Assembly (NCBI GenBank): GCA_016867335.1
Contig: VGJU01000014.1
Location: forward strand, 1-33,577
Length of the DNA stretch: 33,577 bases
Direction of reading: 5' to 3'
Origin: Candidatus Zixiibacteriota bacterium
Lineage (GTDB): Bacteria > JAAXHH01
Within the stretch, counting starts at the first letter, position 1, and each line of letters starts with the position of its first letter. Both the position numbers and the translations under genes were made by a program. Under the pieces are notes generated by a model, which saw nothing but the letters and a program-made list of their open reading frames with translations, was not told the DNA's origin and did not search any database. This document shows, in pieces, positions 5,389 through 11,841 of this stretch.

Positions 5389-6159
5389 ATGAAGCTACGG
5401 GTATACGCCGTGATCGTCGTAGGACTGCTGGGGAGTGGGCCTCTCTTTGCACAGCCTGCTCGGACACCGGAGTCTCCGGTGGAAAGCTGGAAAAAAACCG
5501 ATCTGCGCATGAACGACAACTGTTCGGCGTGTCACCAGCGGCTGGGCGAACCGCTTGCCATGCAGGTAAGCCAGTGGCAAGGGAGCGTTCATGCACAAAA
5601 GGGCGTATTTTGCGATTCCTGTCACGGCGGCGATCCGACCAGCACGGTGCTGACCGTTGCCATGGGCGAGCAAAACGGCTTTATGGAGGCCCCCCAACCT
5701 CCGGCGGTGCCCGACGACTGCGGCCGATGCCACGAGGATGCGCTCGCCAGCTTTAAAGAAAGCGCACACGGCGAACTGTTCGAATCCAACGACTACGAAC
5801 CCAGTTGCGTAACCTGTCACAACAGCCACGATGTAAAAGCGGTTTCGTTCGACATGGTAGCCATGACGGCTTCATGTGGGGAGTGTCACGAACAGAACTA
5901 TATCGACGAGGTACGCAACCCGCTTGCGGAAACCGATCGGCGTATGGAGCGTTTGCGCGCACAGATCGCCTCCCTTCCGGCGTCCAATCCCAACGCCGCC
6001 TATCTGCACAGGCGTCTGGACAAAGCGTCCGAAGCGTTTAGCCGTCTGGCCCATTTTCTAAATGCCAACACAATCACGACCCAACGCCAGACACTCGACC
6101 GAGAACTGACCTATCTCGAATTTATGGTCGCGTTTGACGATACCAAGACGTCCGACTGA
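5389..6159 (+). CDS. Exported pentaheme c-type cytochrome
   Basis: This 256-aa protein has a signal peptide (residues 1-21, ending LFAQ) and five CXXCH haem-binding motifs, starting at residues 45, 75, 111, 140 and 163. Extra His residues at 68, 127 and 147 could be distal ligands. The haem domain is followed by a Cys-free helical tail (about 170-250). It has no membrane anchor beyond the signal and no NapC/NirT-type TM, so it is probably a soluble periplasmic electron carrier of the c3/c7/c554-like sort. No oxidoreductase partner or cytochrome maturation gene is nearby, so its donor and acceptor are unknown. The 127-bp upstream gap suggests its own transcription start. Confidence 0.9.
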   Translation: MKLRVYAVIVVGLLGSGPLFAQPARTPESPVESWKKTDLRMNDNCSACHQRLGEPLAMQVSQWQGSVHAQKGVFCDSCHGGDPTSTVLTVAMGEQNGFMEAPQPPAVPDDCGRCHEDALASFKESAHGELFESNDYEPSCVTCHNSHDVKAVSFDMVAMTASCGECHEQNYIDEVRNPLAETDRRMERLRAQIASLPASNPNAAYLHRRLDKASEAFSRLAHFLNANTITTQRQTLDRELTYLEFMVAFDDTKTSD

Positions 6160-6230
6160 CCGGCGTTGCGACTTTTCTGTTGACTTTTTATACCTCGGCC
6201 CCTATTTTTAAGCCTCTGTATGCCTCACCC

Positions 6231-6303
<73 letters not shown>

Positions 6304-6361
6304 TTCTTCGATCCCACATTTCGAACATCAGCCGTCCAGGACTCATGGCATTTTTCATACC

Positions 6362-6388
6362 GAAAGAGCGCCCCCGGACGGGCTTTTT
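6362..6388 (+). terminator. Likely intrinsic terminator downstream of tRNA-Phe
   Basis: A short GC stem (GCCC/GGGC around CCGGAC) is preceded by an A-rich stretch and followed by TTTTT and further T-rich sequence. It sits about 60 bp after the tRNA and before the ABC gene cluster, where a transcript end is expected. The stem is short. Confidence 0.5.
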
Positions 6389-6483
6389 CGTTTTTCCGTA
6401 TCCGGTTGCCGAAATGCTGCAGGATACAACCGGACCATCATATCCCCAAACCGCCAATATTCTCTCCCACGTCACAAAATTAC

Positions 6484-6511
6484 TTGATATTTGTTAGTAT
6501 ATTGATATTGT
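6484..6511 (+). promoter_or_regulatory. AT-rich putative promoter of the exporter cluster
   Basis: The 300-bp stretch between tRNA-Phe and the first ABC gene has no gene besides the terminator. It holds a markedly AT-rich block around 6475-6512. A TTGATA hexamer at 6484 and TATTGT at 6506 are 16 bp apart; TATATT at 6498 is an alternative -10. This is a visual match only. Confidence 0.35.
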
Positions 6512-6616: not shown

Positions 6617-8851
6617 ATGATCGCTCTGCTCGACCCGGTTCCGGAGCCGCTTCGAAAAAAAATTGAAACCGTACGTCCGGCGGACGAAGAGGAACTCATC
6701 CGCGTATATGGCGACATGGACGATCGTCTCCGGTTTGGCAGCCGATGGGTGGTAGTGACCGGGCGGCGAGTGCTGGTCGTCCCTACCGACGGTCTCGACG
6801 GCGTGGTGGACATCCCCTTCGAGGAGATGATCGGCGCGCGGACCGAAACGCTGATCGGCGGTGGTCGGCTGGAAATCGAACGTAAAGACGCGCCTACCGT
6901 ATCGGTGGCGTACTCGAACTCCGAAGCCGCCAAATTTTCCGAGGTGACGCGCGGCATCGAGCAACTCCGCAAAACCGAACCGTTTCTTGTCAACATCTAC
7001 CGCGACAAAACGCGGTGTGACCGCTGCAACCGTCTGCTTCCCGAAAAAAACGGACGCTGTCCGGCCTGTGTGCGCCGTCTGGCGACGCTCAAACGCATCT
7101 CCGAATATCTTGGCCCTTACAAGGGCCGAGCCATTCTGTTAGCTGTCATCTCGGTCCTGACAACGCTCGCCGAACTACTCCCGCCGCTGCTCACCCTGCG
7201 AATCGTGGACGACGCTCTCGCGCCGACAGATGCGGGAGCGCGGGATACGGCAGCGCGGCTGTCGCTGCTCGGATGGCTCGTACTCGGTCTGTTCGGTCTC
7301 CACTTTTTGTCGGCCTTTGGCGCATGGGCACGGGGGTGGATCGTAAGTTGGCTGGCTGCGCGTGTCACCGCCGACATACGCAGTCAGTTGTATCGTCAAC
7401 TCGAACTGCTGTCGCTTCAGTTTTACGACAACCGCCAGATCGGCTCCATCATGTCGCGTGTCACCCGCGACGCGGGTATGCTTCAGGATTTTCTCGTGGA
7501 CGGCCTGCCGTATTTTTTTGTCAACAGTCTGTTGATCGTAGGTATCATCGGGTTTTTGCTGACCATGAGTTGGTCGCTCACGCTTTTTGTCTTGGTCCCC
7601 GTGCCGATCCTGATCGCATGGGGTGCCTTTTTCTGGAAACGGATGCGTCGGTATTTCAACAAATGGTGGGTGTACTGGGCATTGCTTACCGCGGGTGTCA
7701 ACGAGGCCATAACCGGTATCCGGGTCGTCAAAGCCTGTGCACAGGAACATCGTGAAATCGAGGAGTTCGAACGCCGCAACCGTGCCACGCAGGCGGTGGG
7801 CGTAGATACGGACCGGCACTGGTCTCTCTTTCACGGAACCGTTGCCTTCGTCACCGGCATAGGCGTCATCATCGTATGGCTGCTCGGCGGGTTTCAGGTG
7901 ATCGACGGCAGTCTTACGCTCGGCACACTGTTGGCGTTCTACAGCTATATCTGGCTGATTTACGGACCACTTCAGTGGTTTGGGCAACTCAACACATGGA
8001 TGACCCGCGCTTTTGCCGGCGCGGAACGTATCTTCGAAGTGCTCGATACCGCCCCAGAGGCGTACGAAGACCCCAACGCGACCCCCATGCCCGACATGAA
8101 AGGTCGTATCACCTTTCGGAAAGTGAGTTTCGGATATGACAAAAGCAAACCCGTCCTCCATGACCTCGACTTGGATGTGCAAGCGGGCGAAATGGTCGGT
8201 CTGGTGGGCAAGTCCGGGGTGGGCAAAACGACGACGGTCAACCTCGTGAGTCGGTTTTACGACGTGGATCACGGGAGCATCGAAATAGACGGTGTCGACA
8301 TTCGAAAAATAAAACTCGAAGACCTGCGCAGACAGATCGGTATCGTGCTTCAGGAGCCGTTCCTGTTTAGCGGCACGATCGCGGAAAACATCCGCTACGG
8401 TCGTCCGGGTGCGACCTTTGAAGAGGTTGTGGCGGCGGCGCGGGCCGCCAACGCGCACACGTTTATCCTGCTCAAACCCGACGGCTACGACACCCACATC
8501 GGCGAGCGGGGTAGCGGGCTATCCGGCGGCGAAAAACAACGGTTGTCGCTGGCGCGTGTCATCCTGCACAACCCCAAAATACTCATCCTCGACGAGGCCA
8601 CTTCGTCGGTGGACGTGCAGACCGAAAAACAAATACAGGAAGCCATCGGGCGGGTTGCCAGTGAACGCACCACCGTCGCTATTGCACATCGGCTGTCCAC
8701 GCTTCGCAACGCGCACCGCCTTGTAGTACTCGAAGGCGGACGCATTGTGGAGATCGGAACACACCAAGAGCTTATGGACAAACGCGGAGCGTTTTACAAT
8801 CTGGTTCAGCTTCAGCAGGAAGTGGCGTCGATCATCGAGGTGAAAGAGTGA
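6617..8851 (+). CDS. ABC exporter half-transporter with PH-like and zinc-ribbon N-terminus (DUF1854-linked), copy 1
   Basis: This is a 744-aa fused permease-ATPase. The ATG at 6617 fits the GGAG SD better than the GTG at 6614. Domain order: a beta-rich PH-like N-terminal domain (about 1-120), a zinc ribbon with two CxxC knuckles (CDRCNRLLPE...CPAC, about 134-152), a six-helix ABC exporter membrane domain (about 170-460) and the nucleotide-binding domain. Walker A GKSGVGKTT lies near 531, the signature LSGGEKQR near 634, Walker B ILILDEATSS near 655 and the H-loop AHRL near 690. All ATPase residues, including the Walker B Glu, are intact. The end overlaps the next, paralogous gene by 4 bp (GTGA), so a heterodimer is likely. 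I recall the nearest annotated group being called 'cyanophycin metabolism-associated ABC transporter'. The substrate is unknown. Confidence 0.93.
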   Translation: MIALLDPVPEPLRKKIETVRPADEEELIRVYGDMDDRLRFGSRWVVVTGRRVLVVPTDGLDGVVDIPFEEMIGARTETLIGGGRLEIERKDAPTVSVAYSNSEAAKFSEVTRGIEQLRKTEPFLVNIYRDKTRCDRCNRLLPEKNGRCPACVRRLATLKRISEYLGPYKGRAILLAVISVLTTLAELLPPLLTLRIVDDALAPTDAGARDTAARLSLLGWLVLGLFGLHFLSAFGAWARGWIVSWLAARVTADIRSQLYRQLELLSLQFYDNRQIGSIMSRVTRDAGMLQDFLVDGLPYFFVNSLLIVGIIGFLLTMSWSLTLFVLVPVPILIAWGAFFWKRMRRYFNKWWVYWALLTAGVNEAITGIRVVKACAQEHREIEEFERRNRATQAVGVDTDRHWSLFHGTVAFVTGIGVIIVWLLGGFQVIDGSLTLGTLLAFYSYIWLIYGPLQWFGQLNTWMTRAFAGAERIFEVLDTAPEAYEDPNATPMPDMKGRITFRKVSFGYDKSKPVLHDLDLDVQAGEMVGLVGKSGVGKTTTVNLVSRFYDVDHGSIEIDGVDIRKIKLEDLRRQIGIVLQEPFLFSGTIAENIRYGRPGATFEEVVAAARAANAHTFILLKPDGYDTHIGERGSGLSGGEKQRLSLARVILHNPKILILDEATSSVDVQTEKQIQEAIGRVASERTTVAIAHRLSTLRNAHRLVVLEGGRIVEIGTHQELMDKRGAFYNLVQLQQEVASIIEVKE

Positions 8852-11079
8852 ACCCCTTTATCGAAACCCTACCCGAAAAGATCGCCGGAAAACTGCGCCA
8901 TGCCAAACCGGAAGACGAAACGGTGCGGATACAGGTGTTGACCGACATGAACATGGAGCGCCGTTTCGGAGAGCATTGGGTAGTCGTCACCGACCGGCGG
9001 GTGCTGCTGATCCCCGACGACGGGGACGACGGCACGGTCGATATTCCGGTAGATGAAATCGCCGAGGTAAAAGTCGAACCGCTGGTCGGCGGCGGACGTA
9101 TGGAGTTGGAACGTAAGATCGGCGAATCCGCCAACATCCGGTATTCGGGATCGCTGGCGGGCAAGTTTTCCGAAGTGGCCGCAGGCATCCGGCAGTTGAC
9201 CAAAGGCGAAGAACTGACCCTGCCTTCGCATATCGAAAAAACGCGGTGCGACCGTTGTCATCGACTGCTTCCCGAAAAGGACGGTCTCTGTCCGGCTTGC
9301 GTGCGCAAAGGGGCGACGTTTTTGCGCATCCTCACCTATCTCAAACCCTACCGGTCGCGTGTCGCCGCCATGGTCGCCCTTGTAGTCATCGGAACGGTGA
9401 TCAACCTGCTTCCTCCGCTTATCGTCCAACACATCATAGATGACGTGCTGACGCCGCAGGACAACATATCGTTGCTGTTCTGGTTTACGGGCGGACTGCT
9501 GGCCGCTCAACTCGCCATCTGGGGTATTCGCGTCGGTCGGGGATGGATCACGGTATGGATAGGCGGGCAGGTAGCGGCGGACATACGGTCGCAGTTGTAT
9601 CACCACATGCTGTTTATGCCGGTGCGGTTTTTCGACAAACACAAAGTGGGCACGCTCATCTCGCGGATCACCAACGATACCGAGCGGCTCGAAGGTTTTA
9701 TGATGTTTGCCATGCCCCACCTCTTTACCGACGGATTACTGGTCGTCGGCATCCTGTGCTTGCTGCTTGTCAAAAGCTGGACGCTGACCCTGTTCGTTCT
9801 GCTACCGATCCCGTTTATCGTGTTGGCGAGCTTTTTTATCTGGAAACGGCTGCGGCGCAGCTGGGGACGATGGCTGGCCAAATGGGCCAGACTCAGTTCG
9901 CACCTCAATGAGTCGATTTCCGGTATCCGCGTGGTAAAGGCTTTTGCACAGGAAAAAAGGGAGGGACTTAGGTTCGACCGTCGCAATCAGGAACTGCGCG
10001 ACGCCAGCATCTATGTAGATAGAATGTGGTATATCTTTTTTACCGCCACCAACTTTCTGATGAGTTTCGGCGTGTTTTTCGTCTGGTATTTCGGTGGCAG
10101 ACAAATTTTGGGCACCGAGCTTACGCTCGGTGGGCTGATGGCTTTTATCAGTTATCTGTGGATGCTCTACGACCCGCTTCAGTGGCTCGGTGAACTCAAC
10201 ATGTTTCTTTCGCGCGCGTTTGCCGGCGCAGAACGCATCTTCGAGGTGTTGGACAAGGAACCCGAACGCGCCGAAGCCATGGACGCGCTTCCCATGCCGG
10301 ATATGGTCGGTCACGTGGCATTCCGAGACGTTTCCTTTGGTTATGACCGCGCGCGCCCCGTACTCAAGGACATATCGCTCGACGTGCGTCCCGGCGAGAT
10401 GATCGGGCTGGTGGGGCGGTCCGGGGTCGGAAAATCGACACTGATCAACCTGATCTGCCGTTTTTACGACCCGGACCGGGGCGGGATCGAAATCGACGGC
10501 CACGACATGCGAAACATCCGTCTGGCAGACCTGCGCCGGCATATCGGCATGGTGCATCAGGAGTCGTTTCTGTTTAACGGAACCATCGCCGAAAACATCG
10601 GGTACGGGAAACCGGGTGCGGAGATGGACGAGATCATCCGTTCGGCCATGGCCGCCGAAGCACACGATTTTATCGTCGGGCGCGCCGACGGCTACAATAC
10701 GATGGTCGGAGAACGCGGCAACAAACTGTCAGGCGGCGAAAAACAACGCATTGCCATCGCCCGCGCGATTCTTCACGATCCTCGTATCCTTATCCTCGAC
10801 GAAGCCACTTCGTCGCTGGATACCCAAACGGGAAAAAAGATCCAAGAGGCTATCGCCCGGCTGGTAAAGGGGCGCACGACGTTTGCCATCGCCCACCGAC
10901 TGTCCACACTGCGTAGCGCCGACCGGCTCGTCGTCCTCGACGACGGCAAAATCGCCGAGGTCGGCTCGCATGAGGAGGTGATGGAAAAAAAGGGCATCTT
11001 TTACAACCTGGTCAAAACCCAACAGGAGACCACCGCCGTCATCGGCGTAGGAGGCGGAAAAGACGCCGTACCCGCGTGA
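8848..11079 (+). CDS. ABC exporter half-transporter with PH-like and zinc-ribbon N-terminus, copy 2
   Basis: This is a 743-aa paralogue of the gene just upstream, with the same architecture throughout: PH-like domain, zinc ribbon (CDRCHRLLPE...CPAC, about 132-150), six-TM exporter domain and NBD. Walker A is GRSGVGKST near 522, the signature LSGGEKQR near 626, Walker B ILILDEATSS near 647 and the H-loop AHRL near 681. The GTG start overlaps the upstream TGA. Both copies keep consensus catalytic sites, so neither looks like the degenerate half found in many heterodimeric exporters. The tandem duplication plus coupling indicates a heterodimer. The N-terminal PH-like and zinc modules are not part of a standard MsbA/LmrA-type exporter and may dock the adjacent DUF1854 protein or sense a ligand. 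Confidence 0.93.
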   Translation: MNPFIETLPEKIAGKLRHAKPEDETVRIQVLTDMNMERRFGEHWVVVTDRRVLLIPDDGDDGTVDIPVDEIAEVKVEPLVGGGRMELERKIGESANIRYSGSLAGKFSEVAAGIRQLTKGEELTLPSHIEKTRCDRCHRLLPEKDGLCPACVRKGATFLRILTYLKPYRSRVAAMVALVVIGTVINLLPPLIVQHIIDDVLTPQDNISLLFWFTGGLLAAQLAIWGIRVGRGWITVWIGGQVAADIRSQLYHHMLFMPVRFFDKHKVGTLISRITNDTERLEGFMMFAMPHLFTDGLLVVGILCLLLVKSWTLTLFVLLPIPFIVLASFFIWKRLRRSWGRWLAKWARLSSHLNESISGIRVVKAFAQEKREGLRFDRRNQELRDASIYVDRMWYIFFTATNFLMSFGVFFVWYFGGRQILGTELTLGGLMAFISYLWMLYDPLQWLGELNMFLSRAFAGAERIFEVLDKEPERAEAMDALPMPDMVGHVAFRDVSFGYDRARPVLKDISLDVRPGEMIGLVGRSGVGKSTLINLICRFYDPDRGGIEIDGHDMRNIRLADLRRHIGMVHQESFLFNGTIAENIGYGKPGAEMDEIIRSAMAAEAHDFIVGRADGYNTMVGERGNKLSGGEKQRIAIARAILHDPRILILDEATSSLDTQTGKKIQEAIARLVKGRTTFAIAHRLSTLRSADRLVVLDDGKIAEVGSHEEVMEKKGIFYNLVKTQQETTAVIGVGGGKDAVPA

Positions 11080-11145
11080 CAGGATATACGGCTCACCGCC
11101 GCGTCCACCGGACGATACGGTCATCGCCATGACGCCGGTCCCGAA

Positions 11146-11175
11146 CGCCCCGTAAGGGCGACACATGCGTCGCCC
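11146..11175. repeat. Overlapping competing hairpins / palindromic intergenic element
   Basis: Two perfect stems share one arm. CGCCC-CGTAA-GGGCG (11146-11160) and GGGCGAC-ACATGC-GTCGCCC (11156-11175) cannot form together. There is no T-tract. The sequence resembles GTAGGGGCG...CATGCG...CGCCCC palindromes that I recall as interspersed repeats in environmental genomes. It lies 28 bp before the DUF1854 start, so it could also act on that transcript. The rest of the 124-bp gap shows nothing else. Confidence 0.5.
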
Positions 11176-11203
11176 CCATCGCCACCCCATACCCGGAGAC
11201 CCC

Positions 11204-11752
11204 ATGATCCAGACCATCGAAGAAACACCCCCTACAGCACCGAATTACCCCGTGCCCCCGGCAACCATCCACCCCGAACATGTCGAGGCCGGGGACATCC
11301 GTCTGTTTCGAAACCCCCCTTGGCGGCTCCGAATGAGCCTGACGGACCGGTCATATCTTAAAGTCAAAATCGTCCGTGCCGCGCCGCTGTCCCACCCGTC
11401 GCAGTATATCTGTTTTCTCGACGAAAAAGACGAGGTGATCGCCATGGTAAAGGAACCGTCAGACCTCGAAAAAGTCTCACACCAGATCGTCCGAGAAGAA
11501 CTCGATCAGCGCTATCTGACCGCCGTCGTCCTTCAGGTGCATTCGGTCAAAAGCGAGTTTGGAATTTCCTATTGGGATGTGGAAACCTCGCGGGGACGAC
11601 GCGAATTTGTGATCCAGAACGTCTCGGAAGCTGCACAGTGGTTTGGAGAAACCCACCTCATGCTGGTCGATGTGGATGGCAACCGGTTCGAGATTCCGGA
11701 CATGACGGCGCTGGACAAAAAAAGCTTGGGGTATATCGGTTTGGTGCTCTGA
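11204..11752 (+). CDS. DUF1854 family protein (ABC-exporter companion)
   Basis: This 182-aa soluble protein matches the DUF1854 type: a compact beta-rich N-terminal part (FRNPPWRLRMSLTDRSYLKV, then LDEKDEVIAMV), a middle strand set ending YWDVETSRGRREF, and a helical C-terminus. ATG 11204 has GGAG upstream; an in-frame ATG at 11165 lies in the palindrome and lacks an SD. DUF1854 proteins are typically encoded beside ABC exporters of the sort upstream here, and I recall a database label of 'cyanophycin metabolism-associated DUF1854 family protein'. No cyanophycin gene is visible in this window. Its biochemical role is unknown; a regulatory or coupling subunit of the exporter is my inference. 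Its TGA overlaps the ATG of the ABC-2 ATPase. Confidence 0.82.
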   Translation: MIQTIEETPPTAPNYPVPPATIHPEHVEAGDIRLFRNPPWRLRMSLTDRSYLKVKIVRAAPLSHPSQYICFLDEKDEVIAMVKEPSDLEKVSHQIVREELDQRYLTAVVLQVHSVKSEFGISYWDVETSRGRREFVIQNVSEAAQWFGETHLMLVDVDGNRFEIPDMTALDKKSLGYIGLVL

Positions 11753-11841
11753 TGCATATCCTTGTCGAAAATCTTGTCAAAACATTTCGTATCGCCGAAA
11801 GGCGTCCCGGTCTCCGGGGCGCCTTTTTCGGCCTTCTGTAG
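11752..11841 (+). other. Severed N-terminus of the ABC-2 ATPase gene, ending at an in-frame TAG
   Basis: The ATG at 11752 overlaps the DUF1854 stop (TGATG) and starts a 29-residue peptide, MHILVENLVKTFR and on to GAFFGLL, closed by TAG at 11839-11841. The frame is identical to the ABC ATPase that continues with [14 protein letters not shown]. This peptide is what family members carry as the first beta-strand of the NBD and the loop before it. The gene is thus split by a single amber codon at codon 30. Confidence 0.8.
11801..11828 (+). terminator. Strong intrinsic-terminator-like hairpin inside the ABC ATPase 5' coding region
   Basis: GGCGTCCCGG at 11801-11810 pairs with CCGGGGCGCC at 11814-11823 over 10 bp (one G-U) around a TCT loop, followed directly by TTTTT. 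By shape it is a textbook intrinsic terminator. It sits after the DUF1854 gene but within codons 17-25 of the ATPase gene, and the TAG follows 11 bp later. It could end the upstream operon; its coding content (RRPGLRGAFF) also fits the ATPase family. Confidence 0.65.

Follow-up and report, generated by a model that had tools for sequence, protein, structure and literature searches.

The closest described relatives of the transport unit reported here are the proteins covered by the NCBIfam models NF052233 (exporter) and NF052234 (DUF1854 protein), which NCBI names 'cyanophycin metabolism-associated', a label that the first-pass annotation of this DNA had given correctly. They are built in the same way, i.e., with a PH domain, a ribbon and an exporter core and with a DUF1854 partner, and the alignment is full-length. 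In the NF052233/NF052234 systems, however, a single exporter adjoins cphA at the loci examined, whereas the present locus combines two exporters with a lack of cphA, and its scores are far under both cut-offs. Its DUF1854 protein is a clear member of Pfam DUF1854 (PF08909), a family that itself has no described function, and a literature search returned no paper naming DUF1854. TM287/288 and TmrAB resemble the locus in being made of two different half-transporters of one fold, but to our knowledge neither has a PH-ribbon N-terminus or a DUF1854 partner. The fold is also common to YbtPQ, IrtAB and mycobacterial BacA. IrtA has an additional cytosolic N-terminal domain; the N-terminal domain of the present exporters is, in contrast to these three systems, predicted to be a PH fold followed by a zinc ribbon, and there is no sign of import for their unit.

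The window, i.e., the whole stretch of DNA that was analysed, comprises 33,577 nucleotides of contig VGJU01000014.1 from a Candidatus Zixiibacteriota bacterium (GCA_016867335.1). The architecture first proposed for it, two exporters with PH-like and ribbon N-termini, overlapping genes and DUF1854 next to them, is borne out by the reading frames, the Pfam matches and an AlphaFold2 model (Table 1). The open frame of ABC1 starts at GTG 6614 or ATG 6617 and its stop overlaps the GTG start of ABC2 by 4 bases on the same strand. The two exporters are 53% identical overall; identity is highest in the ATPase (64%), lower over the N-terminal 155 residues (51%) and lowest in the membrane part (45%). A tRNA-Phe (GAA) gene lies just 5' of ABC1 at 6231-6303, and the ORF overlying it (6180-6497) is spurious; a small multiheme c-type cytochrome is encoded at 5389-6159, upstream of the transport unit. 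A scan of the window for promoters and terminators gave promoter-like sites not above chance.

Table 1. Position and properties of the genes and N-terminal domains of the transport unit in the window.
Feature	Position	Strand	Remarks
ABC1: PH domain + CxxC...CxxC ribbon + type IV ABC exporter core	6617..8851	+	744 aa; PF00664 160 bits, PF00005 115 bits
ABC1 PH-like domain + zinc ribbon (predicted), ~residues 1-157	6617..7087	+	51% identity to ABC2 N-terminus; ribbon residues 134-151
ABC2: PH domain + CxxC...CxxC ribbon + type IV ABC exporter core	8848..11079	+	743 aa; PF00664 180 bits, PF00005 130 bits
ABC2 PH-like domain + zinc ribbon (predicted), ~residues 1-155	8848..9312	+	AlphaFold2 pLDDT 93.7; Z 12.3 4tyz, 11.5 3dcx
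DUF1854 protein	11210..11752	+	PF08909 125.9 bits; model pLDDT 92.4

Both proteins are type IV ABC exporters (ABCB/MsbA fold), as they match PF00664 and PF00005 with canonical motifs, and the heterodimeric exporter TM287/288 is found with other bacterial half-transporters among their sequence matches in the PDB. Walker A, Q-loop, signature, Walker B, D-loop and H-loop are kept in both ATPase domains, so that neither ABC1 nor ABC2 appears to have a degenerate ATP site. A tree built from 80 exporter cores places the first-position and the second-position exporters in two separate clades, each containing members from the window, Latescibacterota, Gemmatimonadota and Gammaproteobacteria in a similar branching order. 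A constraint making ABC1 and ABC2 sisters was rejected (AU p = 3e-5), a large signal even for trees that were quick and used a simple model, and a recent local tandem duplication was discarded on this ground. The two clades with their similar order indicate an old pairing, probably as a heterodimer, and the simplest reading of these sequences would be an obligate heterodimer that is passed on, by inheritance or transfer, as one unit.

The N-terminal parts are what sets these exporters apart. Above cut-off, Pfam recognises the membrane region and the ATPase of the exporter core and nothing else, with coverage setting in at residue 174; a single SMC match was seen below threshold. This leaves about 155 N-terminal residues of both exporters without Pfam annotation. 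The ABC1 N-terminus had no significant sequence match among PDB structures. For ABC2 the AlphaFold2 model, made from 57 aligned sequences, is confident (pLDDT 93.7), and residues 3-122 resemble many PH proteins with a Z of 11-12, the best PDB match being 4tyz with a Z of 12.3 and the bacterial PH proteins 3hsa and 3dcx giving 11.4-11.5; Foldseek also gives a PH fold. As modelled, the ABC2 N-terminus belongs to the PH-domain superfamily, which is defined by a PH barrel capped by a C-terminal helix. Directly ahead of the first membrane helix, ABC1 and ABC2 both have the motif CxxC(10)CxxC at residue 134 (CDRCNRLLPEKNGRCPAC and CDRCHRLLPEKDGLCPAC), a ribbon extending to residue 151 whose cysteines would presumably bind zinc. 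CxxC...CxxC, 17-19 residues in total, is kept in 120/131 related N-termini and is missing in six Latescibacterota loci that still have DUF1854. The first-pass annotation took the role of these domains to be undescribed while allowing that they might prove an ordinary part of a well-known exporter; no curated domain covers them except the full-length model NF052233, and a literature search found no paper in which an ABC transporter is combined with pleckstrin homology and a zinc ribbon.

The identity of the third protein is clear, its PF08909 score of 125.9 bits exceeding the gathering score of 26.8. It can start at ATG 11210 (180 aa) or ATG 11165 (195 aa), and the former is probably the true start because GGAG lies immediately 5' of it. 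The structural model is likewise confident (pLDDT 92.4), and comparison with the PDB by Foldseek and VIA-align gave no match above Z 4.8, a result that does not demonstrate a new fold. An origin of DUF1854 by duplication and divergence of the PH domain was considered, and profile comparison gave no support for it.

The combination of exporter and DUF1854 is real and conserved across many bacterial phyla. Named genomes were scanned with an alignment of DUF1854, which yielded 80 loci, many of them from MAGs. Among 398 Pseudomonadota genomes the PH-ribbon exporter was present in 19 and DUF1854 in 22, and all 19 are within the 22 (Fisher p ~1e-29); in 23/23 further DUF1854 genomes checked, mostly of other phyla, the exporter was found as well. 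The arrangement varies. Exporter-exporter-DUF1854 is the main gene order in Latescibacterota, Gemmatimonadota and two gammaproteobacterial MAGs, exporter-DUF1854-exporter is found in 31/38 Bacillota loci, and Poribacteria, Armatimonadota and the cphA-linked Pseudomonadota have one exporter per locus, so that the family does not depend on a pair. In about ten Armatimonadota loci DUF1854 has no exporter in its vicinity, but all 23 checked genomes, many of those Armatimonadota among them, encode a PH-ribbon exporter somewhere. Viral contigs gave no relatives. The PH-ribbon N-terminus has undergone an expansion in two Poribacteria genomes, with six matches in G018 and seven in G022. The genome from which the window is taken (G000), a draft of 431 contigs that is 99.98% complete with 5.26% contamination, carries a second, diverged unit of PH-ribbon exporter and DUF1854 (L052) on contig C321, and counterparts are present in three relatives (L053-L055). 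As C321 is short this second unit could in principle be foreign, though the relatives have its counterpart.

The genes around the unit say little about what it transports. The first-pass annotation had taken the adjacent ABC-2 export system and DUF218 gene as a hint to a different substrate, an idea that did not hold up since relatives of the two ABC-2 membrane genes and of the DUF218 gene were found in none of the fetched relative loci. Without such conservation they carry little information on the substrate. In this genome it is plausible that the ABC-2 ATPase gene is co-transcribed with DUF1854, because its frame opens at ATG 11752 and overlaps the DUF1854 stop; the frame, however, contains an in-frame TAG (11839-11841) and the listed ORF runs from GTG 11857. 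It could be that the gene is broken, that the assembly is in error here, or that the gene has a short start. Clustering of neighbour families by BLAST, with annotation on samples, showed that murD, an M42 peptidase gene and cysH recur near related pairs in Gemmatimonadota and Latescibacterota, and this neighbourhood may represent shared ancestry. At six loci (L056, L057, L063, L067, L068, and L089) murD is found apart from the usual cell-wall cluster and close to the exporter/DUF1854 unit, often with the M42 peptidase and PAPS reductase genes. The Mur ligase near the relatives was also considered as a cphA-like synthetase and discarded, being an ordinary murD (TIGR01087 above cut-off); the window's own genome has murD elsewhere.

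Does the unit then serve cyanophycin or beta-Asp-Arg metabolism, exporting or sensing such peptides, as the names of its relatives would imply? NF052233 is the best NCBIfam match of both exporters and NF052234 that of the DUF1854 protein, and in Pseudomonadota the link to cyanophycin is real: cphA is present in 20/22 genomes with DUF1854 against 28/398 genomes overall (Fisher p 3e-25), and at the 13 such loci examined a single exporter and DUF1854 adjoin one or two cphA genes. This agrees with a described cluster in which cphA occurs in two copies together with an unclassified ABC transporter (PMC10687191). The window's proteins nevertheless stay well below the model cut-offs, with 649.9 and 657.1 bits for the exporters (NF052233 cut-off 880) and 80.4 bits for DUF1854 (NF052234 cut-off 150), while the cphA-linked control locus (L189) reaches 1446.1 and 234.5 bits, and the DUF1854 proteins linked to cphA group in a well-supported clade of their own, apart from that of the window. 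A cyanophycin locus is recognised by cphA (TIGR02068) in the genome, ideally adjacent. The first-pass annotation saw no cyanophycin genes in this DNA and suggested looking further in the genome, and the absence holds there too, with no cphA above cut-off and no cphB; the strongest cphA-like frame is MurE. None of the 16 genomes that sample the window's phylum has a cphA match (0/16). Among 64 DUF1854 genomes, of which almost every one belongs to the window's class or to another phylum, cphA was found in one, on a contig different from that of its PH-ribbon exporters. A conserved link to cphA and cphB elsewhere in the genome, which had been named as the observation that would overturn the first reading, is thus missing in this genome, while in the Pseudomonadota branch a link to cphA exists (20/22). 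On the missing cphA and cphB, the 0/16 in the phylum and the 1/64 among DUF1854 genomes, a cyanophycin role in this genome, already largely refuted, was rejected and we regard it as very improbable. The substrate of the window's unit is not cyanophycin, and the name is a property of one proteobacterial branch that does not fit this unit.

Two other functions deserve consideration. A flippase for a lipid or a lipid-linked precursor, comparable to MsbA or PglK and with the PH domain sensing membrane phospholipid, would account for the MsbA models being the second-best matches (446.8 and 487.1 bits) and for the presence of murD close to the pair at several loci of Gemmatimonadota and Latescibacterota. 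PH domains frequently bind lipids, but many domains of this fold bind proteins instead, and both exporters fall below the cut-off of 602 bits of the MsbA lipid A exporter model TIGR02203. As no murD adjoins the window's unit, and the murD neighbourhood of the relatives is perhaps shared ancestry only, a flippase seems unlikely. It is also conceivable that the unit is an importer with an exporter fold and that its cargo is a corrinoid, heme or siderophore-like cofactor; YbtPQ, IrtAB and mycobacterial BacA are known importers of this kind (PMC10967856, PMC10246721, PMC10960864). Directly upstream of a paralogous unit, in six loci of the same class (L045, L046, and L048-L051), there is a gene for a BtuF-like periplasmic binding protein, an unusual companion of an exporter fold, and this raises the chance that some family members import. 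That linkage belongs, however, to a different paralog, a single exporter without CxxC ribbon accompanied by DUF1854; no binding-protein gene lies beside the window's unit and none is among the recurrent neighbours of related two-exporter loci. We therefore hold import by the window's unit to be improbable.

The reading that we favour, and consider reasonably probable, is a type IV ABC transporter that works as a heterodimer, has a PH-ribbon platform in the cytosol and is served by DUF1854 as a dedicated accessory subunit. ABC1 and ABC2 would most likely be the half-transporters of an obligate heterodimer in which both ATP sites work, and in each half the four-cysteine zinc ribbon would join the cytosolic PH domain to the first membrane helix. 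The PH-ribbon modules would then make up a platform below the membrane domain, onto which DUF1854 docks or by which it is regulated. As a soluble cytosolic subunit, DUF1854 would dock on this platform or on the ATPase side, and it would gate the pump or present the substrate. The sole DUF1854 fusion seen, in one Limnochordaceae MAG (L093), speaks for the tie between DUF1854 and exporter but is a point against docking on the PH-ribbon modules, as DUF1854 is there fused to the exporter C-terminus behind the ATPase domain. The Armatimonadota loci with DUF1854 alone, the ribbon-less Latescibacterota loci and the loci with one exporter also weigh against the proposal. Outward transport would be the default from the fold, and direction is the weakest step of the proposal.

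The findings make a database label testable: 'cyanophycin' applies to one clade, and in several other phyla the transporter and DUF1854 travel without cyanophycin. A more far-reaching view would be that PH-ribbon/DUF1854 transporters constitute a class of their own among type IV ABC transporters, spanning multiple phyla and having a dedicated cytosolic control subunit, that the cyanophycin label belongs to one proteobacterial branch of it, and that some branches, such as the ribbon-less units of Latescibacterota with a BtuF-like binding protein next to them, import; taken as a whole this is speculative and, at present, rather doubtful. For the window's unit and its relatives the analysis identifies a previously undescribed, predicted PH and zinc-ribbon front end on ABC transporters, together with a probable dedicated accessory subunit, and it calls for caution in that the cyanophycin annotation should not be transferred to these genomes.
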